Shown: positions 20,695-62,802 of the stretch, one piece after another
Position numbering within the stretch: the stretch's first letter is position 1
Layout: the number at the start of each line of letters is the position of its first letter
DNA from: Nitrospira sp.
GTDB taxonomy: Bacteria > Nitrospirota > Nitrospiria > Nitrospirales > Nitrospiraceae
Reading direction: 5' to 3'
DNA length: 64,000 nt
NCBI GenBank assembly: GCA_029194535.1
Contig: JARFXR010000002.1
Location: forward strand, 310,001-374,000
Program-made: the position numbers and the translations under genes
The notes under the pieces: model-generated
The model's database searches: none
What the model was told of the DNA's origin: nothing
Seen by the model: only the letters and a program-made list of their open reading frames with translations

Positions 20695-21681
20695 ATGATC
20701 GCTCAGAAAACGTTAATCGACTGCCACGTACATCTGGCGGCGCTGCCCGACGGCGACAACGGGTGCTACATTTCGCCGAAGATCCTCAAGAGCCCGCTGT
20801 TTCGGTTTCTCCTGTGGAAACACCGCCTGCCACCTGACAAACCGCGCGAAGCCAATCGAAAATATCTCGACGACTTGCTGAATGAACTCCGCGCCTCCCG
20901 CCATGTGCAGAAGGCGGTGCTCCTCGGCATGGACGGCGTGTACGACCACAACGGACGGCTGATCGAAGACCACACCGACTTTCTCATCAGCAACGCGTAC
21001 GTGCTGCAGACCGCCAAGGCCTATCCGCAGGACTTTCTCGCGGGCACCTCGGTCAATCCACAGCGGCGCGATGCGGTGGAGGAGGTGCATCGCGTGGCCG
21101 ACGCCGGGGCCGTGCTGGTCAAGGTGCTGCCGAATGCCCAACAGTTCAACCCGGCCGATCCGCGGTACAGACCGTTCTACCGGGCGCTCGCAGAGCGCAA
21201 ACTTCCTTTCTTGAGCCACGTGGGCTACGAGTTCAGTTTGATCGGCAAAGATCAATCGGTCGGAGATCCCGACCGTCTTCGATTGGCCCTCGATGAAGGC
21301 GCCACCGTCATTGCCGCCCATGCGTGCAGCTACGGCCTCATGGTCTACGAGAAATTTCTTCCCACGCTGCGTGACTTCATCCGCCGCTATCCCAACTTCT
21401 ATGCCGATATCTCCGCGTTGACGCTCCCAAATCGCCTGGCGATGCTGCTCAAATTGCGCCGGTATCCGGAGATCCACGAGCGGCTGCTCTTCGGCACCGA
21501 CTATCCCCTCTCGGTCTTCCATCTGGCCGCCTGGGGACGCGTTGGGCTCCGCACGATGTGGCGTCTGATCCGCACGAAGAATCGGTTCGATCGACAGGTC
21601 GAGGTGTGTGGGGGGCTGGAACTCGGCTTTCGCTCGCTCGGAGACGTCATTGCACGGCCGCAACCGGCCCAACGGCTCTAA
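20695..21681 (+). CDS. Amidohydrolase-family (TIM-barrel) metal-dependent hydrolase
   Basis: 328 residues of the amidohydrolase_2 type. Metal-binding HxH is at the N-terminus (DCHVHLAALPDG), a Lys strand LVKVLPNAQQFNP, a His in FLSHVGYEF, another in AAHACSYG and the late Asp in LFGTDYPLS. It resembles the ACMSD/uracil-5-carboxylate decarboxylase-like superfamily; the substrate is unknown. It ends four bases before the sigma factor gene and is probably co-transcribed with it. Confidence 0.8.
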   Translation: MIAQKTLIDCHVHLAALPDGDNGCYISPKILKSPLFRFLLWKHRLPPDKPREANRKYLDDLLNELRASRHVQKAVLLGMDGVYDHNGRLIEDHTDFLISNAYVLQTAKAYPQDFLAGTSVNPQRRDAVEEVHRVADAGAVLVKVLPNAQQFNPADPRYRPFYRALAERKLPFLSHVGYEFSLIGKDQSVGDPDRLRLALDEGATVIAAHACSYGLMVYEKFLPTLRDFIRRYPNFYADISALTLPNRLAMLLKLRRYPEIHERLLFGTDYPLSVFHLAAWGRVGLRTMWRLIRTKNRFDRQVEVCGGLELGFRSLGDVIARPQPAQRL

Positions 21682-22182: not shown

Positions 22183-22253
22183 TCAATTTTGAGTGTTGAG
22201 TTTTTCGGGTGCTCTATTTTTCAATGTTCAGTGTTGAATGTGTAATTTTCAAT
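22170..22253. repeat. Degenerate heptad repeat array after the sigma factor gene
   Basis: Period-7 units gagttgg, gagtaat, caatttt, gagtgtt, gagtttt run from 22170, and a second stretch (tttcaat, gttcagt, gttgaat, gtgtaat, tttcaat) follows. It is a T-rich relative of the AGTGCTG array and fills most of the gap between the sigma factor gene and its neighbour. Confidence 0.5.
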
Positions 22254-22307
22254 TCGGGAACGGTTCATCGCGTCAGCGCCACCCGTCATTCGTCACGGTT
22301 CTCAGAA

Positions 22308-23708
22308 ATGCCTGAACACGACCTCGAAAAACTGCTGGGTGGCTTCGCGGCGGATACGCTGACGGCCGAGGAGCGCACAGTGCTTTACAAGGCCGCCTTG
22401 CAGGACCAGCAACTATTCATCGCCCTGGCCGACGAACAGGCATTGAAAGAATTGTTGAACGATCCGGCCGTGCGGCGCAGACTGTTGCAGGCTTTGAACC
22501 AACCCAGTCCGTCAGGCGCCGCCGGTTCAAGGTCATGGTTCGATTGGTTCCGACGTCCGGCCGGTCTCGCCTGGGCCGGTGGCCTCACTGCCGCAGTCGT
22601 CGCTGTCGTCCTCGGTACGAGGATGTATCAAGACAGCCTCAAACAGGCGGCGCGATCGGTCGCGACTGAAGAGACGACGCCAGCCACGCCGCCAACCCCG
22701 ATGATCCCACCGTTACAATCGGGACCTGCACTGATGAAGGAAGCAGAGTTGAAGGCCAAGAAAAATCTGGCTCCGCCTGTTGAGCCGAAACAGATCGAGG
22801 CAATGGCCGACAAGTCGGCGAAACGAGAGCGTGCCGCTCCCTCACCTCCAGCTCAGATGCAGACTGCGCCTGGTGCTTCGCGTGGCAATATCACGCTGCG
22901 AACCGGGCGGGACGAGGCACGGAGACAAGCTGAGACCCCTGTCGAAGCGGTAAGGAAGTCAGATGAGCAACCCGTCGGCACGATTGAGCGGAAGGATGCG
23001 GCGGCCATGCCGACAACGACCGAACTGGGAGCACAAGCCGCCGCTCCGCCTGCCGGCGCGGCGGCCGGCGCCCGCAGGCTGTTCTACACCGGCGGGTCTG
23101 AGCGCTCGGACCAGCGCATGACGGCCCAAGAGCAAGCGCGGAAACCTCCCTCGGAGCCGGCTCCAGAAGCCGACAAGCCTGCACGAATGTTCGAGCAGCT
23201 TTCTCAGCTGAGCGGAGCGAAACGATCTTCAGCCGCACGCACACCGCTCGGTCTCCGCTACAGCTTCGTCGTCCGCGGAGCGGACGGACGGGATCGAGTC
23301 GTCGACGCGTCGAGGGCGGCGGAGAGCGGCGACCCGGCTCAACTCACCATTGAATCGAATCAGGACGCGTATCTCCAGGTTTGGATCACTGTTGGTTCCT
23401 CGGTAATATCCTTGCTGTGGCCCGACAAAGATACCGGTCAGATCTCGATGAAAATCCTAGCCGGCCGCCGACAATCGATTTCACTGCCCTCAACCGGCGA
23501 TCCCATTACCCTTGCGGTGCGTCTCTCACGAGTGCCGTTCGGGCCGATCACTAAACAAGAAGCGGCGATGTTCGATCGACCGTCACCCGACCAACTTCAG
23601 GAATCCCTTCCACAGGAACAGGCCACCTACGTGGCCACCCCCGATCTGTCGCCGCTCGCGCAACTGACGACCGAGATCCCTCTCGGAACGTCACGCTCGC
23701 TGCGGTAG
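22308..23708 (+). CDS. Putative anti-sigma protein with DUF4384-like C-terminal domain
   Basis: 466 residues from an ATG at 22308 (the frame is open further up but covers heptad repeats). The N-terminal 75 residues are helical and acidic (LEKLLGGFAADTLTAEERTVL), as in anti-sigma factors; there is no zinc-binding HxxxCxxC motif. One membrane helix at about residues 84-104 is followed by a long Pro/Ala/Lys-rich linker. The C-terminal domain (YSFVVRGADGRD, IESNQDAYLQVW, SVISLLWPDKDTGQI) fits DUF4384, common in surface stress-sensing proteins. Adjacent to the ECF sigma gene, it is probably a membrane sensor that holds the sigma factor. Confidence 0.72.
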   Translation: MPEHDLEKLLGGFAADTLTAEERTVLYKAALQDQQLFIALADEQALKELLNDPAVRRRLLQALNQPSPSGAAGSRSWFDWFRRPAGLAWAGGLTAAVVAVVLGTRMYQDSLKQAARSVATEETTPATPPTPMIPPLQSGPALMKEAELKAKKNLAPPVEPKQIEAMADKSAKRERAAPSPPAQMQTAPGASRGNITLRTGRDEARRQAETPVEAVRKSDEQPVGTIERKDAAAMPTTTELGAQAAAPPAGAAAGARRLFYTGGSERSDQRMTAQEQARKPPSEPAPEADKPARMFEQLSQLSGAKRSSAARTPLGLRYSFVVRGADGRDRVVDASRAAESGDPAQLTIESNQDAYLQVWITVGSSVISLLWPDKDTGQISMKILAGRRQSISLPSTGDPITLAVRLSRVPFGPITKQEAAMFDRPSPDQLQESLPQEQATYVATPDLSPLAQLTTEIPLGTSRSLR

Positions 23709-23721
23709 CATTTCTTCGTCG

Positions 23722-24534
23722 TTACGTGCGTCCGGCGTAGCGTCCGAGCTTCGTCACGAACGGGAATCGCAGCATCATGAAGAGGTTCAGGCAGACCGGC
23801 GGGCCGAGATGTTCGAGGCCGATCTTCATGCCCGTCTGTCCCAGCGCCGGCTCCGGACAATAGGTGCCGAACAGCCGGTCCCACCAGGGCACGTTGAATC
23901 CGAAGTTGCTGTTCGTCTCGCGCACGTTCGTCGAATGGTGGATGCGATGCATGTCCGGCGTCACGACGACCCATCGAAGTATTCGATCGAGTCCTAAGGG
24001 CATGCGCACATTGCCGTGGTTGAACAGGGAGCTGGCGTTGAGCACGATCTCGAAGATCACGACCGCCAAGGGCGCCACGCCCAGAGCCGCCACCGATACA
24101 GCCTTGATGAACGTCGAAAGGACGATTTCCACCGGATGAAATCGGACACCGCTGGAGACATCCAGATCCAAATCCGAGTGATGCATCATGTGAAACCGCC
24201 AGAGGATCGGGACGACGTGAAATACCTGATGCTGCCAGTAGATGATGAAATCCAGCGAGACGATCGCAAGGGCGACTTCAAGCCAGGCCGGTCCCTCCAC
24301 GAGATTCAGCAGCCCCCAGCCGCTCTCCTGCGCCATCACCGCCGTCGCCACGACGCCGCCCATGAAAAACAGTCTGGCGATCACCGTGTTCACGACCACG
24401 ATCGTGAGGTTGCCGCCCCAGCGGCAACACTTTGACGCCGTCAACGCCCTCCGCGGCGCCAGCAGCTCCCATGCCGCCATCATCCCCAGGATGGATAGAA
24501 ACGATCCAACTCGAATGAGATCTCCGGACTCCAT
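23722..24534 (-). CDS. Sterol desaturase / fatty acid hydroxylase family protein
   Basis: 270 residues from an ATG at 24534 preceded by GGGGGAG. Several membrane helices and the histidine clusters of the di-iron hydroxylase family are present: HQVFH, HMMHH and HRIHH, plus FNHGN. It would hydroxylate or desaturate a lipid in the membrane; sterol, hopanoid or fatty acid substrates cannot be told apart here. It converges on the anti-sigma gene with only 13 bp between. Confidence 0.88.
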   Translation of the reverse strand: MESGDLIRVGSFLSILGMMAAWELLAPRRALTASKCCRWGGNLTIVVVNTVIARLFFMGGVVATAVMAQESGWGLLNLVEGPAWLEVALAIVSLDFIIYWQHQVFHVVPILWRFHMMHHSDLDLDVSSGVRFHPVEIVLSTFIKAVSVAALGVAPLAVVIFEIVLNASSLFNHGNVRMPLGLDRILRWVVVTPDMHRIHHSTNVRETNSNFGFNVPWWDRLFGTYCPEPALGQTGMKIGLEHLGPPVCLNLFMMLRFPFVTKLGRYAGRT

Positions 24535-24774
24535 CGCACTCCCCCTCGCGATCAATGCCGGTTCACAGGGCCAACCTACGTCCGATCCACCGAGTCAGAG
24601 ACATGAAATGTGGAATGGATTCAGAGGGAGAAGAAGGCGACCAAGACGAGTCGTGGTTCGGTGAACCTTGGTTCGAGTAGGTGAAGGGCGCGGTCCTGGT
24701 GCACGGGTATCCGGATCACGTTTCCATTGTTTCTTGTCGGCCTGTCTGGTAGAAGCGGGGGCCGCATCCAGGCA

Positions 24775-24788
24775 TCACGATAACGTGA
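24775..24788. promoter_or_regulatory. Short palindrome before the spermidine-synthase-like gene
   Basis: tcacg-ataa-cgtga is an exact inverted repeat 35 bp upstream of the ATG at 24824 in a 289-bp divergent gap. It could bind a regulator; no family is implied. The rest of the gap holds nothing I recognise. Confidence 0.3.
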
Positions 24789-24823
24789 TCAAGGCCTCCC
24801 ACAGGCTCGGTCAAAGGAACGGT

Positions 24824-27088
24824 ATGGCGGTTCTGTGGTCTGGGACGATCTTCCTCAGCGCCTTTCTGCTGTTTCTCGTCCAGCCGATGATGGCCAAGAT
24901 GATCCTCCCCATGCTGGGAGGAACGCCCGCCGTCTGGAACACCTGCATGCTCTTCTACCAAACGACGCTCTTGGGGGGGTACGGGTATGTCCATGTCTTG
25001 AATCGCAAGCTTCAGCCTGGTTTTCAAGTGCCGGTCCATCTGGTGGTTCTGGCCCTTCCGTTGTTCCTACTACCCATCGGTCTTCCGAAAGGGTGGACTC
25101 CTCCGGATCAATCGACCCCGATTCTCTGGGTGCTCCTGATGTTAACCGTTTCCATCGGGCTCCCGTTCTTTACCCTGTCCACGACCGCGCCGCTCCTCCA
25201 GCGTTGGTTTTCCTGGACGAAGCATCCTTCGGCGAATGACCCCTACTTCCTCTACGCCGCGAGCAATGCCGGAAGTATGGTCGCCTTGCTGGGATATCCA
25301 TTCGTCATTGAACCCCGGATACCGCTTAAAGGACAGGTGCTTCTGGCCCAGACTTCGCTCTGGAGCGCCGGCTATGCCGGGCTGGTGGCGATGATCTTCT
25401 GTTGCGCTTGGGTCCTCCGCCGGAACCAGGATCCATCGGTGACACCCTCGATTCCTACGCCTCACGCCGCTGCCTCGATCTCGGCGGCGCCTCTGCCGCT
25501 GAAGCAGTTGCTGCGATGGGTGGCCCTGGCCTGCATCCCGTCGAGCATGTTGCTTGGCGCCACAACGTACATCACGCTCAACGTCGCGGCTATTCCGTTG
25601 CTCTGGGTCCTGCCCCTGGCGCTGTATCTGCTGAGCTTCATCCTCGTCTTCGCCAAATGGCCTCCGCTCGCTCACCGCGCGATGGTGTTGGCGCTGCCGG
25701 TGGTGCTACTCGTGATGGTCTTCGACGCCATGCCGGCAGCGCCGCTCTTGCCCAAGGAAATCCGGCTGCTCCTGCCGGTGCTGGGATTGGGGGCGGTGGC
25801 GATGGTCTGCCACGGCGAACTGGCCCGCACCAGACCACCGGCCGAGCGGCTCACTTTGTTCTACCTGCTCATGTCCGTCGGCGGCGCGCTGGGAGGACTG
25901 TTCAATGCCCTGATCGCTCCGGTCATCTTTCGAGACATCTACGAATACCAAGCGTCCATGGTCGGCGCCGCGCTCCTCCTCCCGCGCCTCGAGGACCTGC
26001 AGGGCGCACAGGCCGGAGCGTGGCTGCGCACGATGGCGGCCGGCAAGGCCGAGTGGCTACGGGAGGCGCTGTGGCCGGCAACCGCCGTCGTCGCGACGCT
26101 GCTCACCGGGTGGATCACTTTCTCACTCGGCGAGGCGCCCTTTCTTGTCGATGCGGCGCTTGCCGCCATTCCCCTCGCTCTGTGCTACGCCTGCAGCAAT
26201 CGGCCGTTGCAGTTCGGCGCGATGGTCGGCGTAGTGCTGGTGAGTGCGCACGTGATCGGTGAGACGTTCTCGGACACGAAGCTCCATCAATCCCGCACGT
26301 TCTTCGGCGTGCTGAAGGTCATGGCGGAAGGCGATCTTCACCGGCTCAAGCACGGAACCGTGAACCACGGCATGCAGAACATGAAGGAAGGGGCTCGCCG
26401 CGATTCATTGAGCTATTTTCACCCGACCGGATCATATGGACAGGTGTTCGCGGCATTCACCGGCGCACAGGCCAAGAAGCGGATCGCCGTGACCGGGTTG
26501 GGCATCGCCGCCTTGGCGAACTACTGTGACGCGGGGCAACAGGTGACGTATTACGAAATCGATCCGGAAGTCACCGCCATCGCGCAGAACCCCCGGTGGT
26601 TCTCCTATTTTCGCGACAGCGTGGCCCGAGGCGTAGACCTCCAGGTCGTCCACGGCGATGCCCGGCTGAAGATGGAAGAGGCCGCCGATGCCGCCTACGA
26701 CATGATTATTTTAGATGCGTTCACCTCGGACGCCATTCCGGTTCACCTGCTCACCAGAGAGGCGATCGAGCTGTATCTCCGGAAGCTCGCACCGGACGGC
26801 CTGCTGGTGGTCCATATCTCCAACAAGTACCTGGCCCTCGAACCGGTCCTGGGGAATCTGGCGGAAACCCTGAATCTGTCCGGATTGAAACAGTTCGGCG
26901 TATCGGACGACGCCATCCACAGGTTTGCCGCCGATATCGTCTTGTTGGCGAGAGAGAAGGAGGCCTTCGGGTCGTTAGGAACGGACCCCCGCTGGACTCC
27001 GCTGCAACGTGTGCCATCGGTCGGGATTTGGTCCGACGACTTCTCCAACGTCGCGCAAATCATCAAGTGGAACAATGAGGTACGGTGA
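24824..27088 (+). CDS. Membrane-fused spermidine synthase-like protein
   Basis: 754 residues from an ATG at 24824 (AAAGGAACGG upstream). The first 470 residues or so are multi-helical and resemble the MFS-like membrane part of fused spermidine synthases (LSAFLLFLVQPMMAKMILPMLGGTPAVWNT). The C-terminal 250 residues have the aminopropyltransferase/SAM fold: TGLGIAALANYCDAG, YYEIDPEVTAIA, VVHGDARLKM and IILDAFTSDAIPVHLLT. Polyamine synthase activity is not certain because membrane-fused members often lack it. A HSDL-type substrate motif is not evident. Confidence 0.83.
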   Translation: MAVLWSGTIFLSAFLLFLVQPMMAKMILPMLGGTPAVWNTCMLFYQTTLLGGYGYVHVLNRKLQPGFQVPVHLVVLALPLFLLPIGLPKGWTPPDQSTPILWVLLMLTVSIGLPFFTLSTTAPLLQRWFSWTKHPSANDPYFLYAASNAGSMVALLGYPFVIEPRIPLKGQVLLAQTSLWSAGYAGLVAMIFCCAWVLRRNQDPSVTPSIPTPHAAASISAAPLPLKQLLRWVALACIPSSMLLGATTYITLNVAAIPLLWVLPLALYLLSFILVFAKWPPLAHRAMVLALPVVLLVMVFDAMPAAPLLPKEIRLLLPVLGLGAVAMVCHGELARTRPPAERLTLFYLLMSVGGALGGLFNALIAPVIFRDIYEYQASMVGAALLLPRLEDLQGAQAGAWLRTMAAGKAEWLREALWPATAVVATLLTGWITFSLGEAPFLVDAALAAIPLALCYACSNRPLQFGAMVGVVLVSAHVIGETFSDTKLHQSRTFFGVLKVMAEGDLHRLKHGTVNHGMQNMKEGARRDSLSYFHPTGSYGQVFAAFTGAQAKKRIAVTGLGIAALANYCDAGQQVTYYEIDPEVTAIAQNPRWFSYFRDSVARGVDLQVVHGDARLKMEEAADAAYDMIILDAFTSDAIPVHLLTREAIELYLRKLAPDGLLVVHISNKYLALEPVLGNLAETLNLSGLKQFGVSDDAIHRFAADIVLLAREKEAFGSLGTDPRWTPLQRVPSVGIWSDDFSNVAQIIKWNNEVR

Positions 27089-27279
27089 GGGGACCCGTCG
27101 CGCAGGGCGAATCGGAGCTTGTCCCCAGTCCCGCCCCTCTCATCAGGAATCGGGCACCTACGTCGTCACGCGGGACCGCTCCCCCGCTGCCCGCATCGAG
27201 GCGGACGTCCCGCTCGCGCGGTGAGTCTCGGTCGTCAGGAGCAGCGGTGCTACCGAAGGGGGCCTGCCGTTGCCGAGAG

Positions 27280-27750
27280 TCACAGACCGAGATCGGACAG
27301 ACCTGGATGGCCGTCCGGACGCCGCCCAAGAGTCCAATGATATTTTCGGTTCTTCTCGCTGATAGGCAGATCGTTGATGCTCGCGATCCGACGACGCATG
27401 AAACCGTGCTCGTCGAACTCCCAATTCTCATTGCCATAGGACCGATACCACTGGCCCGCATCGTCATGCCATTCATAGGCGAACCGGACCGCGATCCGGT
27501 CATCGCGGAACGCCCACAGCTCCTTGATGAGCCGGTAGTCCAGCTCCTTGTTCCACTTTCTCGTTAAGAACTCCACGATCGCCTCACGTCCGCTGAAGAA
27601 TTCCGCTCGATTGCGCCATACACTGTCCGGGGTATAGGCCAAGGAGACTCGGTGAGGGTCACGGGTATTCCAGGCATCTTCAGCCGCACGCACCTTCTGC
27701 GCGGCGGTTTGCTCATCGAAGGGCGGCAACGGCGGTCTGGGCGCGTCCAT
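27280..27750 (-). CDS. SnoaL/NTF2-like protein (DUF1348 family)
   Basis: 156 residues from an ATG at 27750 with CAGGAG upstream; the open frame beyond it is not needed. The fold is a small cone-shaped NTF2-like domain: [39 protein letters not shown], and the DUF1348-typical [24 protein letters not shown]. Function unknown; members are soluble homodimers. The gap of 191 bp to the spermidine-synthase-like gene shows no recognisable feature. Confidence 0.82.
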
Positions 27751-28270
27751 GGCAATCGCTCCTGTCTGAGGTGATGTGACCGGTCGGAATTCGGCGCGAA
27801 TCCCGCCGATGCCTTCGCCCGGCCACACGCGTCGATTCTCGCGCGAGCCAAATTTCGTTGTCAACGTCGGAATCAGTCCTTCCAGGTCTCGTCGGATTTC
27901 TTTGCGATGAAGTACATCTAGCGCAGCGGATGCTGGTCTCGTTCAAGATGCTGGACTGCGCATCCGCAGACCCTGAGGAGACACCGTCGGCGCTCGATCC
28001 GGCATGTCGTGTCCCGGCCTCCCCGGCCGTGCGCTCGCCGACTCTTGTCCTATTTGCCAAACCGTTAACGGTTCTCTGGGACGTATCTCATAAACAGACA
28101 GGCCGCCCTCTGATTCGTGAAGGGGTTCACCACCCTACCTGCCTGGACAGCATGAAGGCTGGCGCAGGATTCTTGCGCGCGCCCGATCTCCCTTGTCAAC
28201 GCGGCGAGGCGTCGCAGGCTGTCCGTCAAGGGGTAGTGGGTCACTTTGCCATCCAGACGCACTGAAGTCT
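27751..28270. other. Gene-poor stretch
   Basis: No convincing gene. A minus-strand GTG-initiated frame of 65 codons (28065-28262) has no ribosome binding site or recognisable domain. A perfect 14-bp palindrome aaccgttaacggtt is at 28060-28073. This may be decayed coding sequence. Confidence 0.4.
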
Positions 28271-28376
28271 GTCATTCCCGCGGAAGCGGGAATCCAGTCA
28301 AGGCCTCCTCTTCAGCCGTTAACTCTTCAGCAGTTAGCCGTGGTCGAGGAGTGGATGCCCGCCTCCGCGAGCATGA
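28271..28376. repeat. Interspersed inverted repeat (GTCATTCCCGCG type)
   Basis: The left arm at 28271-28297 (starts gtcattcccgcgg) and right arm at 28351-28376 (ends gcgagcatgac) pair imperfectly over about 26 bp. The left arm also has an internal cccgcggaagcggg hairpin. REP-like elements with such ends are widespread in bacterial genomes. Confidence 0.65.
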
Positions 28377-28403
28377 CGCAAGAGGAAACTGACCCATTAC
28401 CCG

Positions 28404-29846
28404 TCAAGGGACGGGGCTCGAAACAGTTGTTGCGTGAGCCTGCAGGTCTTGCAAAAGCCTTTGGAACTCCTTGTCGTTCCTGAGAAGGCGGGTCGCTGCG
28501 AGAAGCAGTCGCTCAATCTGCTCATCGGTGAGAGAAAGGTTGGTCGGGATGTTCATGAGATAGTCATGCTCTTCCGGGTTCTCCACTTCCGTCAGACTGG
28601 CATTGATGAAATAGATGTCGGCATCGGGGGCAAAGGCGCTATCTCCGCGAGGCTGCCGGCGAAGCTCCGTTTTCCAGTTCTCGACAGCTTGCCTCATGAG
28701 CTGGAATGTATCCGTGGAATATCGATTGATCGGAATATCGATGAAGGCGCGACTGACGCGTGAGAGGCCCGGGATTTCGCTCAATTGGTATTGGTTGACG
28801 TCCGGTGCGGTCTCGGCGCTGACCATGAGATACACCAGTTTTCTGATATTGTTGACCCCGAGCAACTTGAAATAGGACTCAAGATCTCCCACGAGCGCAG
28901 CCGTCTCCAAGACGCTGCGCATGCCGATATTGTCGGACAGCCCCCCGTCTAACAGATGGACATAGGGACGTTTCTTGGCGTCGAGGTACGACCGGAGTTC
29001 GTTCGCCCGTTGCCGCCCCCAGGAGGTTGCACGCTCCTTTACAAATCTGGGAGGCACTTGAAAGCCGCATTGCCCTGCGTAGTTCTTCAGCGAAATCGGG
29101 CTCAGGATGAGAGGCAATGCGCTGGACGAGGCGGTGGCAACGGACAGGGGAAGCTGATTGAGATCGGAACAAATCAGGTCGAATTGCCGCTGGTTGAACT
29201 CGAAACGCGAAAGCGTCGCCATGTCCGACGCGTGAACGAAGACAATCGGTCGTCGATGCTGTTCGACGAGATCCCCGAAGGTGTGCCCGTCAAACAGCGC
29301 TTCGTCGAGCAGTTCCGAAAAGACATGAGCCCGGCCGAAATAGGGAGACCACATCCGGAACCAGTTAGAGGGGGACCAGAAGACACGCGATTCAAGTTCG
29401 CTCTCCCAATCCTTTCTGAGGAACCGGTACTCAAAATCGTGAAAGATCCGGTCGCCGTACAGCGCGAAGTAGGCCGCCGTGAAGCTGCCGCCGGACAGGG
29501 CATTGATGATATTCAGCTCGTCGACCAGGCGTTCGTTTCGTCCTTCCCACCTGATCTGGGTTCGCGCCAGTTCCCGCAACACGCCGTAGGATAGAGCAGA
29601 CGCCCGCGCGCCGCCGCCGGAGAAGGAGGCAATGATAAACAGACCGTCGGAATTGCCGGTCGGAGGGGGAGGGAAGTTCGTCGATCGATATCCATAGTTC
29701 ACATCCCATTGTTTGAGCGGAGCGTTCACGGTCGGCCGGACATATTCGCAACCTGATACTAGACTCAACAAAATAAAGACGAGCCACGCACCGCCGAAAG
29801 AACAAATTGCGTCTTTCGACACCTTCCCGGGACCGCCTCCGCTCAT
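28404..29846 (-). CDS. Patatin-like phospholipase, predicted lipoprotein
   Basis: 480 residues. A lipoprotein signal ends LLSLVSGC. The patatin domain has the oxyanion loop FSGGGARASALSYGVL, the nucleophile in NALSGGSFTAAYF and the catalytic Asp in LLDGGLSDNIGMR, so the Ser-Asp dyad is complete. It would be anchored to the envelope and hydrolyse phospholipid or other acyl esters. The C-terminal 100 residues end in a helical region of unknown role. Its ATG overlaps the stop of the VOC gene (29843-29846), so the two are co-translated. Confidence 0.87.
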   Translation of the reverse strand: MSGGGPGKVSKDAICSFGGAWLVFILLSLVSGCEYVRPTVNAPLKQWDVNYGYRSTNFPPPPTGNSDGLFIIASFSGGGARASALSYGVLRELARTQIRWEGRNERLVDELNIINALSGGSFTAAYFALYGDRIFHDFEYRFLRKDWESELESRVFWSPSNWFRMWSPYFGRAHVFSELLDEALFDGHTFGDLVEQHRRPIVFVHASDMATLSRFEFNQRQFDLICSDLNQLPLSVATASSSALPLILSPISLKNYAGQCGFQVPPRFVKERATSWGRQRANELRSYLDAKKRPYVHLLDGGLSDNIGMRSVLETAALVGDLESYFKLLGVNNIRKLVYLMVSAETAPDVNQYQLSEIPGLSRVSRAFIDIPINRYSTDTFQLMRQAVENWKTELRRQPRGDSAFAPDADIYFINASLTEVENPEEHDYLMNIPTNLSLTDEQIERLLLAATRLLRNDKEFQRLLQDLQAHATTVSSPVP

Positions 29847-30211
29847 TCGGCCTTCCTCCGATGAATTGTCACGGAATTTCCATCAGGATCTGAAACGACC
29901 GCCATATGGCACACCGGCGTCTCCTTCGGCTCAAGGCGGAACGGACAGCCGCTTGATCTGAGGCGCGCGATCGCCGTGTCGAAGTCTTCCACTTTAAGTC
30001 CAACCGAACCGCCGTCGGCTGACGGCGTCCAATCGGGCGCGCTGTTGACGAGGGCAAGCGTGCCCGACCCGATATCGTATTCCACGAATCCCTGATGATT
30101 CGTCCCGAAGAACCGTGTTTCCTTCAGACCCAAAACCCCTACATAGAAGCGACGAGCGCGCTGTAGGGCCGTCACCGGATAACAGGTGAACGCGATCTCG
30201 GCCACCTTCAT
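29843..30211 (-). CDS. VOC-family (glyoxalase/dioxygenase fold) protein
   Basis: 122 residues from an ATG at 30211 with GAGAGGAG upstream. The beta-alpha-beta-beta-beta repeat is visible: ARRFYVGVLGLKETRFF, VEYDIGSGTLALV, VEDFDTAIARLRSSGCPF and the C-terminal SDPDGNSVTIH. Metal ligands and substrate are not clear. It lies first in a two-gene unit with the patatin lipoprotein. Confidence 0.85.
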   Translation of the reverse strand: MKVAEIAFTCYPVTALQRARRFYVGVLGLKETRFFGTNHQGFVEYDIGSGTLALVNSAPDWTPSADGGSVGLKVEDFDTAIARLRSSGCPFRLEPKETPVCHMAVVSDPDGNSVTIHRRKAE

Positions 30212-30374
30212 GTGACGCTCCTCTCTCATAGCTCGGACGGCTTGATCAGGCCGACCTGCCAGCGCGCCGTTTCGGTGCTCTGAGCCGGCGGATTCTTGCG
30301 CGTGTCCAGCGCCATGTCAACGCCCATTGATCGGAGATTTCCAATTCACGATTAATACCGCAGGTGGTGTGGCG
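30212..30374. other. Gap with a 33-codon minus-strand frame
   Basis: A short minus-strand frame (30226-30327, ATG to TGA) ends just before the VOC ribosome binding site and would read MGVDMALDTRKNPP and so on. It has a weak ribosome binding site and no recognised family; it may be a leader peptide or a remnant. Nothing else is seen before the repeat at 30375. Confidence 0.3.
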
Positions 30375-30468
30375 AACGGGGCAACGTGCTCACCCGCCCA
30401 ACCCGCCGCGCCGAGACGCGGCTATTCTCCACGCGCGCGGAACGGAAGGGACCCACTGGGGATGGCTA
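30375..30468. repeat. Dispersed GC-rich repeat, copy C
   Basis: Shares cgcgccgagacgcggct (30407-30423) exactly with 31673-31689, flanked in both copies by ctcaccc-cccaac/cag on the left and cgcgcg-gggaccc on the right. Intergenic, upstream of the RnfD-like gene. Confidence 0.6.
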
Positions 30469-30598
30469 GAGTGAGTACGGTGGGGCTGTGCGTCACGACA
30501 GGACCCGCGAAATGATTTCACAAGTTCACTTTTGCCCATGAAAGGATTGTGCAGCTCGCGCCATACCATAGATAGGCCAACCATTCGCAAGGTGCCGG

Positions 30599-51554: not shown

Positions 51555-51598
51555 CTTCCCGAAGGGTCCGTGTACCCGCGCGGACCTACCCGTATCCG

Positions 51599-51636
51599 GA
51601 AGAGGCCGATCCTTGCCAGGTCGGCCTCTTCGTTTT
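51599..51636 (+). terminator. Intrinsic terminator
   Basis: gaagaggccga (51599-51609) pairs with tcggcctcttc (51621-51631) and is followed by gttttcc. It ends the small exported protein gene and lies between convergent genes, so it may work in both directions. Confidence 0.75.
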
Positions 51637-51653
51637 CCTTCAGTCTCGACGAC

Positions 51654-52403
51654 TCATCGTCCGTAGCGTCGAAATTCAATGTCGCCGTAGAAGGCCACGG
51701 CCCGTTCCCTGGTATTGTCTGTGTCGGTCATGATCGCTACCCCGTTGATCAGAGAGGGCTCTCCGCCGAAAGCCCTCTTGTAATCTTCATAGATATTTCG
51801 CTCCTCCTCAGCCCACTGCCCAACTTTCTCCTGTCCGCTTTCGACTACAATCATTTGAGCAAAATCGGTATAGGCGTTCGAAACGATGCTCTCAATGGGA
51901 GTTCTGGTTTCCCAGATATAGTTCAACGCCGCGATGGGAACATCCCCGAAAATGGCTTTCGCAGCCATGTATTTGAGTCTTCTTGAAAAGCCGATCTTGT
52001 CGGGGTCATAGGCAAAAGTGATGTAGAGTCTGGCCGGATAATCATCGCCTTGCTTGCGCGCAACATCGCTCTTTTTCAGCAGATTCTCGACTTTCCAACT
52101 CCACCTCACCATCGGAAACTCTTTCGGATCGATCGTGACCTGTTTGACCAAACCCGAAGCCGCCGCCTCGCTGACAGCCTTCACGACGACTTTCTCGCCG
52201 TCGCCCACCACTTCGTAGACCGTGTGGCGGAGAATCTTCTCGAACGTGAGCGGCCTCCAGCCTTCCGGGAAACCTTGTCCAATTCGCGCTGAGGAGAACT
52301 CTCCCACTCGGAGCGTGGAGGGTGAATCCGCCGGAGTATCGGCGGGCCCGAAGAGCAGGGAACAGGCGCAAACGCAGACCGGTGTGATCAATCCCTTTTT
52401 CAT
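51654..52403 (-). CDS. DUF3047 family exported protein
   Basis: 249 residues from an ATG at 52403 that overlaps the stop of the upstream flavoprotein gene (ATGA). A signal-like start (MKKGLITPVCVCACSLLFG) is followed by the DUF3047 pattern: VRWSWKVENLLKKSD, DDYPARLYITFAYD, IVVESGQEKVGQWAEEERNIYEDYKRAFGGEPS and IMTDTDNTRERAVAFYGDIEF. The function is unknown. Translation is coupled to the mercuric-reductase-like protein, so a shared role is likely. Confidence 0.85.
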   Translation of the reverse strand: MKKGLITPVCVCACSLLFGPADTPADSPSTLRVGEFSSARIGQGFPEGWRPLTFEKILRHTVYEVVGDGEKVVVKAVSEAAASGLVKQVTIDPKEFPMVRWSWKVENLLKKSDVARKQGDDYPARLYITFAYDPDKIGFSRRLKYMAAKAIFGDVPIAALNYIWETRTPIESIVSNAYTDFAQMIVVESGQEKVGQWAEEERNIYEDYKRAFGGEPSLINGVAIMTDTDNTRERAVAFYGDIEFRRYGR

Positions 52404-53956
52404 CCTTTTCGTGTCCAGACGAACCACTTTTTCAAGATGTTCTTCTGTCTTTCCGTAAACCGGGCTTTCCGCCAAAGATTTGCTGCCTTCTTATTGGCCT
52501 CAGCTTGCGTCGGATAGGGATGAATGGCGGCCGCGATTGTCTTGGCCCCCGCCCCGACCTTCATCAGTACCGAGAACTCGCTGATCATATCACCGGCATG
52601 GCCCCCGACGATCGTCGCGCCGAGAATCTTGTCGCTCCCTTTGCGAACATGAATCCTGGCAAAGCCTTCCTCCTCACCATCAAGGACGGCACGATCCACT
52701 TCATCCAAGCGATAGGTATACGTTTCAACCTCGATGCCCAACGCCTCGGCATCGTGTTCATAGAGCCCTATATGAGCCACCTCCGGTTGCGTATAGGTGC
52801 ACCAGGGTATGGTGAAGGAATCGATGCTCGCATAGGCTAGTCCGAACGGATGAGGAAAGAGGGCGTTCTGAACGACGACTTGCGCCATGGCATCGGCGGC
52901 ATGGGTGAACTTGTATCGGGAACAGACGTCGCCTGCCGCGTAGATTGTGTGATTGGTCGTTTGCAGCCGCGCATTCACCTTCACGCCGGCGTCGTCGAGA
53001 TCCACTCCCACTGCCTCAAGGCCGAGAGCCTCCACATTGGCCGTTCTGCCGGTACCGAGGAGGATCCGATCAACGGTCACATGATGTCGTTCGCCGTGCG
53101 ACGTCAGAGTTACGTGCGTCCCATCCTCACTCATGCTCACGTGGAGATCCTTCGCGCAACAGAGGACGCTCACACCGTCGCGTTCCATCCGGCCCTGCAA
53201 GATCTCCGCGGCATCGCGATCCTCTCGCTGAAGCACCCCATGCTGTGTCTCGAAGACATGTACGCGGCTCCCGAACCGTGCGAACGACTGCGCCAACTCG
53301 CACCCGATGGGACCGGCACCGATCACCGCAAGCCGCTGCGGCAGCTCGGTGAGCGAGAAGACCGTCTCATTGGTGAGGAATCCCGCCTCCTTCAGGCCGG
53401 GAATCGGCGGGACTGTCGGTCGTGCTCCGGTACAGATCGCCGCCCTCGCAAACCTCAGTGTTCGTCCACCGGCGGGCCCCTCCACCCGAATGGTCCCGGA
53501 AGCTGTAAACTGTCCGCGGCCGATATACACGTCGACTCCTAATCCTGCATACCGACCGACGGAATCATGGCGGCTGATGCGAGCCCGAAGTCTGCGCATG
53601 CGCGCCATCACGGCTGCAAAGTCGTACGTGACACCGGATGGGATGCGAAGTCCGAACTCAGCCGCGTTGCGCAAGTCCGACCATGCACGAGCCGCCCGAA
53701 TGATGGCTTTCGACGGCACGCATCCGACGTTCAAGCAATCTCCCCCCATCAGATGCTGCTCTATCAATGCGACCTTGGCCCCGATACCGGCTGCGACTAC
53801 GGCGGTAATGAGGCCCGCGGTTCCTGCACCCAGTACCACGATGTTATACCGGGCGCTGGACTCCGGGTTCACCCAATTTGAGGGATGGACATGATCCAGC
53901 AGGACCCGATTGTGTTCATCCATGGGTGCAATCGAGCCCGGTTCACCGTGAATCAT
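52400..53956 (-). CDS. Mercuric-reductase-like FAD-dependent disulfide oxidoreductase
   Basis: 518 residues from an ATG with AAGGAAG upstream. FAD motif VVLGAGTAGLITAVVAA, redox pair in MGGDCLNVGCVPSKA (both Cys present), NAD(P) motif VIGAGPIGCELAQSF, and FAD motif YAAGDVC. The C-terminal dimer domain ends with HPYPTQAEANKK. No N-terminal HMA domain and no C-terminal vicinal Cys pair, so it is not a classical mercury reductase; the natural disulfide or other substrate is unknown. It is followed by DUF3047, and this coupling may point to an envelope redox role. Confidence 0.83.
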   Translation of the reverse strand: MIHGEPGSIAPMDEHNRVLLDHVHPSNWVNPESSARYNIVVLGAGTAGLITAVVAAGIGAKVALIEQHLMGGDCLNVGCVPSKAIIRAARAWSDLRNAAEFGLRIPSGVTYDFAAVMARMRRLRARISRHDSVGRYAGLGVDVYIGRGQFTASGTIRVEGPAGGRTLRFARAAICTGARPTVPPIPGLKEAGFLTNETVFSLTELPQRLAVIGAGPIGCELAQSFARFGSRVHVFETQHGVLQREDRDAAEILQGRMERDGVSVLCCAKDLHVSMSEDGTHVTLTSHGERHHVTVDRILLGTGRTANVEALGLEAVGVDLDDAGVKVNARLQTTNHTIYAAGDVCSRYKFTHAADAMAQVVVQNALFPHPFGLAYASIDSFTIPWCTYTQPEVAHIGLYEHDAEALGIEVETYTYRLDEVDRAVLDGEEEGFARIHVRKGSDKILGATIVGGHAGDMISEFSVLMKVGAGAKTIAAAIHPYPTQAEANKKAANLWRKARFTERQKNILKKWFVWTRKG

Positions 53957-54248
53957 AATTCTTCCTTCCCCTCTGCCTTCTCAACATGATGACGGAGCAG
54001 GGAATTGTGGTGTTATGGGAAGGATCATGGACTGAGATGCGCCCGTATGGAAAGTCTTGAGGGACGAAACCATCATTGAAGACGTATCATGGGAATTCCG
54101 GTTCCAACTGTCAACGTCGGTTCCGGTAAGCCCTCATTGGTTCAACCAGGCGGCAATGGAGGTACGATGGGTCCACCGGCTCGAGCGGTGAAGGGAGATC
54201 ATCGTCTGGGAGCGAAGGGGGAGCCGTCTCCGGCTTTGAGTTCACGAC

Positions 54249-61571: not shown

Positions 61572-61760
61572 TCAGCTTGATTCACACTTCTTGCAGAAGA
61601 GGACCTCTCCAAGGTGCTGCTCACGACCCTCCCGCGTCAGGACCCAGGGGCGATTCGTCATCGGCGGTTGATGGCGCACATGTTGTCCATGCCCACAGGC
61701 GAGGTCCGCCACCCAGTCCCCTTGTTCGTCCTGATGATAACCCACAATCGGTTGGTTCAG
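61572..61760 (-). CDS. DUF3565 family small protein, likely CTG start
   Basis: 62 codons. The protein fits the DUF3565 family: IVGYHQDEQGDWVADLACGH, QHVRHQPP, NRPWVLT and a CKKC tail. Cys22, His24 and the final CxxC (56, 59) look like a metal site. A TGA lies a short way upstream, and in the open part there is no ATG or TTG; the only GTG (61745) would cut the conserved QPIVGYHQD start. A CTG at 61760 has GAGG five bases before it and gives the expected N-terminus. The gene is short and not an obvious caller hit, so it could be missed by annotation. Confidence 0.82.
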   Translation of the reverse strand: MNQPIVGYHQDEQGDWVADLACGHGQHVRHQPPMTNRPWVLTREGREQHLGEVLFCKKCESS

Positions 61761-61801
61761 ACTGGCCTCATTCAGACATCATCGGATCGGGCTGATCGCA
61801 G

Positions 61802-62257
61802 CTACAACCTCTCAAACGGCTGCTCTGGACGCGCGGTGGCCGGGAAAAATCTCCACCGGCGTTCGCGATCGAGATCGAACGTGCCCAGGTAATCCAACCG
61901 ACCCTCCAGCGAACGAAACTCCTGCAGCTCAACCGAACAGCTGTCCCTATTGAACACGCGGACGTCGTATTGTCCTACCATGTACAGTAACCCCGTGATT
62001 CCCGCATATACGTTGCGTCGACTCGCGCCTCCGGTATCAGGAAACAGCTCACTGGTCGCAGAACACCTCCCTCCCGCCGTGGCCTTCATGCTGAGGTTGT
62101 ACCGGGCCAGGAATGGATGTGTGGCCACCCGCGTCACGGTGACCACGAGGTCAAGGGACGGCATCTCGGCCACAGCGACCTCGGGAACATCGCTGTTGCA
62201 TGCGGCAAGATAGCTCCAGGCCCACAGTATGATGGTCGCGTGGGCCAGCTGTCTCAC
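61802..62257 (-). CDS. Lipoprotein of unknown function
   Basis: 151 residues from a GTG overlapping the stop of the GlcG-like gene (GTGA). The signal ends SYLAAC, so it is a lipoprotein. The mature part is beta-rich with a single Cys pair possible (GRCSATSEL and RDSCSVELQ). No family recognised. It is coupled to the GlcG-like protein and presumably acts with it. Confidence 0.68.
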   Translation of the reverse strand: MRQLAHATIILWAWSYLAACNSDVPEVAVAEMPSLDLVVTVTRVATHPFLARYNLSMKATAGGRCSATSELFPDTGGASRRNVYAGITGLLYMVGQYDVRVFNRDSCSVELQEFRSLEGRLDYLGTFDLDRERRWRFFPATARPEQPFERL

Positions 62258-62802
62258 TTTGGAGCAGGAACTTTCGGGGATGCGCCGATGGCGTCCAGTC
62301 CGGCCTGAGCGCAGGCGTCGTCGAGATGCGCACCCGGGGCACCTCCCACGCCGATACCGCCCACAACCTCACCCCCGATCTCGATCGGCAATCCCCCGCC
62401 CAAGATCAGCACGTTCTCATTCATGTCGCGCAACGCCTGCAAGGCTGGGACTTTACCGACCAGGTCGGCCAACTCGCTCGTGGGACGGCGCAAGCTGACG
62501 GCCGTATAGGCCTTCTTTCTGCTGCTGTCTATCGTGTGCGGTCCGGCACCGTCTGCACGCCCCATGGCTCGTAGCTCGCCAGCACGGTCCACCACCGAAG
62601 CGCTGACCTTATACCCGTCCTTCTTACAGGCCTCCACCGCCGCCTGTACGGCTTTGCTGGCCATCATCAGCGGCAATACCGACTCTTTGGGCAACTCCTC
62701 AGCCGCGTGACCAACTCCCGAGAGCGCCAGACCAAACATCAGTACCACGCGCGCTGTTTTGCGCGAACCGCGCACACACACCGATCGTGCAATCGACGGC
62801 AT
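62254..62802 (-). CDS. GlcG/HbpS-like (DUF336) exported protein
   Basis: 182 residues with GGAGGAG before the ATG. A signal peptide (VVLMFGLALSGVGHA) precedes the GlcG/HbpS fold: MMASKAVQAAVEACKKDGYKVSASVVDRAGEL, GADG-like loop, and GGLPIEIGGEVVGGIGVGGAPGAHLDDACAQAGLDAI. Relatives bind heme or small ligands in the envelope. Function unknown here. Confidence 0.88.
   Translation of the reverse strand: MPSIARSVCVRGSRKTARVVLMFGLALSGVGHAAEELPKESVLPLMMASKAVQAAVEACKKDGYKVSASVVDRAGELRAMGRADGAGPHTIDSSRKKAYTAVSLRRPTSELADLVGKVPALQALRDMNENVLILGGGLPIEIGGEVVGGIGVGGAPGAHLDDACAQAGLDAIGASPKVPAPK

Follow-up and report, generated by a model that had tools for sequence, protein, structure and literature searches.

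Does translation of a small conserved gene in this Nitrospira genome begin at CTG? The window, by which we mean the whole 64,000-nucleotide stretch that was analysed, carries on its minus strand the frame TGA TGT CTG AAT GAG GCC AGT CTG AAC CAA CCG ATT GTG GGT TAT CAT. Translation from the second CTG in this frame (61758..61760) gives the protein (M)NQPIVGYHQDEQGDWVADLACGHGQHVRHQPPMTNRPWVLTREGREQHLGEVLFCKKCESS, 62 residues long and with its frame intact. The corresponding coding sequence (61572..61760, minus strand) comprises 62 sense codons followed by TGA. The original prediction had placed the gene at these coordinates without naming the strand, and its assignment to the DUF3565 family is borne out by a Pfam match to PF12088 at 110.4 bits against a cut-off of 25 (E = 4e-32), covering model positions 1-56 of 58. 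The residues that the family conserves in this lineage (CGH..H, RPW, GR, and CxxC), as seen in an alignment of 41 sequences, are all present. The protein is an ordinary member of DUF3565, except that its gene starts with CTG in place of ATG, GTG, or TTG. It is encoded by a single-copy gene in the window genome (3.98 Mb, five contigs searched). DUF3565 matches were found in 122 of 147 genomes searched, the relatives being Nitrospira, and most of the best 80 loci of a separate collection likewise carry Nitrospira or Nitrospirota-type names. No paper naming DUF3565 or PF12088 was found in the literature searched. Two observations from elsewhere concern copy number and integrity: one genome of the order has two DUF3565 copies on the same contig (G095:C82, 7592-7762 minus and 20720-20890 plus), and a match with an internal TAG (G031:C367:359-505) lies in a fragmented genome that is 72% complete, reflecting either decay or an assembly error.

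The column occupied by the CTG was read in 122 distinct homologues, of which 106 have ATG, nine GTG, three TTG, two CTG, and two no start codon. An ordinary start codon therefore stands in exactly that column in 118 of 122 sequences, in agreement with the proposal that the CTG marks the N-terminus of the family. A programmatic tally of 120 distinct sequences gave ATG 105, GTG 8, TTG 3, CTG 2, and none 2. The search motif was missing from 10 of 150 sources; eight of these, stretches of unrelated purpose or lacking the gene (L136, L139-L143, L148, and L149), were left out, while L058 and L123 contain the gene with a changed motif and were read by hand as ATG and GTG, bringing the total to 122. 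The two homologues with no start in the column are L111, from Acidobacteriaceae, which has an ATG eight codons upstream, and L147, from another family of the phylum, with an ATG 15-16 codons upstream. These are the only two of the 122 with the more upstream ATG that the original prediction had set against its own start, and neither is a close relative. Their N-termini are not applicable to the window gene because an in-frame TGA (61779..61781, minus strand) lies seven codons before the CTG, with no in-frame ATG, GTG, or TTG between the two. Across the order, a pattern accepting ATG, CTG, or GTG at the start column matches 187 of 235 genomes and a CTG-only pattern just two, both patterns missing genomes with a TTG start or a diverged motif. 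The two are the window genome and G001, a genome of the same genus.

G001, a single 4.08-Mb contig, is the nearest genome compared, with 82-83% DNA identity in the region. For the remaining five genomes of the genus identity is 65-78% over the pieces found, and all five start the gene with ATG, so that CTG is present in two of seven genomes, the two closest to one another. The window sequence TGAGGCCAGT CTG AAC CAA CCG ATT GTG GGT corresponds to TGAGGCTAGT CTG AAC CAA CCG ATC GTA GGT in G001. Conservation of the CTG and of the Shine-Dalgarno motif in relatives had been suggested as a check, and this closest relative has kept both, together with the 5-nt spacer, despite about 82% identity at the locus. 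In the alignment, 20 of 32 columns before the GAGG region match, compared with 9 of 10 in TGAGGCCAGT and 16 of 18 from the CTG to the GTG. The N-terminal codon changes (ATT/ATC and GTG/GTA) are all synonymous, and over the whole gene there are 21 synonymous versus 7 non-synonymous codon differences. On this comparison of sequences, the reading frame is under protein constraint. G001 has no ATG, GTG, or TTG between its in-frame TAG and the CTG, nor downstream of the CTG until Val17. The CTG start is favoured because the closest species retains it and has lost the sole nearby ordinary alternative. We therefore put at roughly 85% the probability that the window holds a genuine and functional DUF3565 gene, present in a single copy and translated from the CUG at 61760-61758 of the minus strand.

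A probable Shine-Dalgarno motif, GAGG (61766..61769, minus strand), precedes the CTG with a spacer of 5 nt; motif and spacer length are the same in G001. Matches to the ribosome-binding site of at least four bases were observed in 72 of 120 upstream regions of homologues, as against about 34 of 120 after shuffling, and a four-base GAGG match taken by itself is weak evidence of a start. Around the start, the mRNA of the window shows less folding than 198 of 200 shuffled versions, and the G001 mRNA has average openness at its start (z = -0.10). In a search for the anti-Shine-Dalgarno sequence, two patterns gave no match, and an rRNA family search found a partial 16S gene at a contig end of G000 and none in G001. 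A change in the anticodon stem of the initiator tRNA has been described, in the passages of the source that bear on it, as relaxing discrimination against CUG (PMC11497404). An unusual initiator tRNA was considered as the cause of CUG tolerance here and rejected: in the window genome and G001 alike, the stem is GGG/CCC and so has its usual three G-C pairs.

Translation could instead begin at the GTG encoding Val6 (61743..61745, minus strand). No other canonical start lies near the N-terminus in the window, and gene finders limited to ATG, GTG, and TTG would choose this one; an ORF list restricted in this way holds only the resulting 57-aa version (61745-61572). The original prediction had argued that GTG would truncate the protein. 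With respect to the Pfam match this does not hold, since the profile begins at V6 and the match starts at the same residue from either codon; the match therefore cannot decide between CTG and GTG. The argument does stand for the conserved N-terminus. Neither Q3 nor I5 varies among the 41 aligned homologues, and an AlphaFold2 model (mean pLDDT 87.5, pTM 0.72) places a first strand at residues 2-10 with a block pLDDT of 94. With a GTG start, residues 1-5 would be lost, among them both invariant residues, and so, judged by this model, would half of the first strand. Further, the codon is GTA in G001, so a GTG start is unusable there, and the next canonical codon common to both species is the GTG at Val17. 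GTG is present at this position in 6 of 120 distinct homologues. Initiation at Val6 is accordingly an unlikely reading.

It might also be supposed that the start has been lost and the gene is decaying, or that an ATG has been miscalled as CTG. The occurrence of CTG in only 2 of 235 genomes of the order would fit either idea. However, the same codon is found in a separate genome that is 18% diverged, and the intact frame and the excess of synonymous changes noted above are those of a maintained gene, making loss or error very improbable. Some genes, such as infC, use a rare start codon, and the Ile5 codon (ATT, window; ATC, G001) could in both species be a rare start. The GAGG lies 17 bases from it, however, and in the 41 homologues Ile5 is no more than a residue that never varies, with an ATG upstream of it serving as the start in most of them; a start at this codon is hardly credible. 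A frameshift from an upstream ATGATG (window ATGATGTCTGAATGA) was dismissed, G001 having ATCATA there.

Initiation at the CTG remains the preferred reading, and it can be set against what is reported of such starts. In the passages of two papers relevant here, CUG is said to make up 0.024% of bacterial initiation codons and to yield about 0.86% of the output of AUG in E. coli (PMC11497404), and 2 of 61,358 ancestral AUG starts are reconstructed as having switched to CUG (PMC5622118). Those same passages mention neither DUF3565 nor the lineage of the window. Given this reported rarity, retention of a CUG across about 18% divergence is unusual, though of a known kind: the window gene shares its start codon with natural CUG-initiated genes of bacteria, and is set apart by the retention of that codon in two species. 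A rough screen of 60 ORFs against the syntenic G001 region, covering about 48 kb of alignable DNA in the window region, found no second convincing CTG start. Nine of the ORFs for which the two genomes share no canonical start close to the N-terminus were inspected by hand, and these looked like non-coding frames, open frames, or genes that start elsewhere. Two segments of the window (22208-30538 and 51560-54245) align little to the otherwise syntenic G001 region and so are probable insertions or replacements.

Upstream of the DUF3565 gene on the same strand are two further genes. The nearer ORF (61802..62257, minus strand) encodes a 151-aa probable lipoprotein (..AACNSD..), ends 41 nt before the CTG, and is a probable operon partner; the gap is 41 bases in the window and 42 in G001. 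This lipoprotein family (..CNSD..) has no match in Pfam or NCBIfam. The lipoprotein gene is overlapped by 4 nt by an HbpS-like gene (62254..62802, minus strand; PF03928, E = 2.4e-34). The HbpS-like, lipoprotein, and DUF3565 genes form a three-gene row that recurs in Nitrospira (61802-62802, minus strand, for the two upstream members in the window). Among the upstream neighbours over 99 loci, some of which are two copies of one assembly, the lipoprotein family accounts for 46 ORFs and the HbpS-like family for 45, so that each is found upstream at roughly half of the loci. The DUF3565 gene is likely co-transcribed with these genes as an operon. On a Pseudomonas aeruginosa megaplasmid (L151, NZ_CP131792.1, 3863-5385), DUF3565 overlaps the start of an acetate kinase gene by one base, with pta following. 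Since DUF3565 there directly precedes acetate kinase and phosphate acetyltransferase, its context differs between phyla.

Five residues of the protein (C22, H24, H27, C56, and C59) are invariant in 41 sequences. On this basis the protein, small and probably cytoplasmic, is a putative metal binder, for which a zinc ribbon is one candidate form. A Foldseek search of the PDB with the model returned no match at E <= 0.001. The best hit of a sequence search of the PDB was a cupin with E = 0.13, and this search found no solved relative. The best alignment from VIA-align 2, to a 30S ribosomal protein chain (Z 4.7, 48 residues, rmsd 3.0), was too weak to be accepted.

We propose that a single A-to-C change converted an ancestral AUG into CUG in the common ancestor of the window species and G001, and that the codon was then kept in both. 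The ordinary initiator tRNA would read the CUG as formyl-methionine, and the start would be positioned by the GAGG, the ribosome-binding site that precedes it by five bases. Initiation is probably assisted by ribosomes that terminate on the lipoprotein gene, 41 bases before the CUG. Initiation at CUG is probably inefficient and the output of DUF3565 protein probably low; the E. coli value of about 0.86%, as given in the passages cited above, leads us to expect little of it. CUG initiation in the cell is read as probable from comparative data. More tentatively, and with considerable doubt, the poor start may have been selected in this Nitrospira clade as a fixed low-output setting that keeps DUF3565 low or condition-dependent. 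If so, its level could follow, for instance, how active the initiation factors are or how its translation is coupled to that of the lipoprotein gene before it.

Comparative support for naturally occurring CUG starts is rare, because the codon is left out by gene finders and in a single genome such a start cannot be told from an error. As G001 removes the alternative start, this locus offers a clean case in which to test how a normal initiator tRNA serves initiation at CUG. It also shows that annotation may shorten or miss a small conserved gene.
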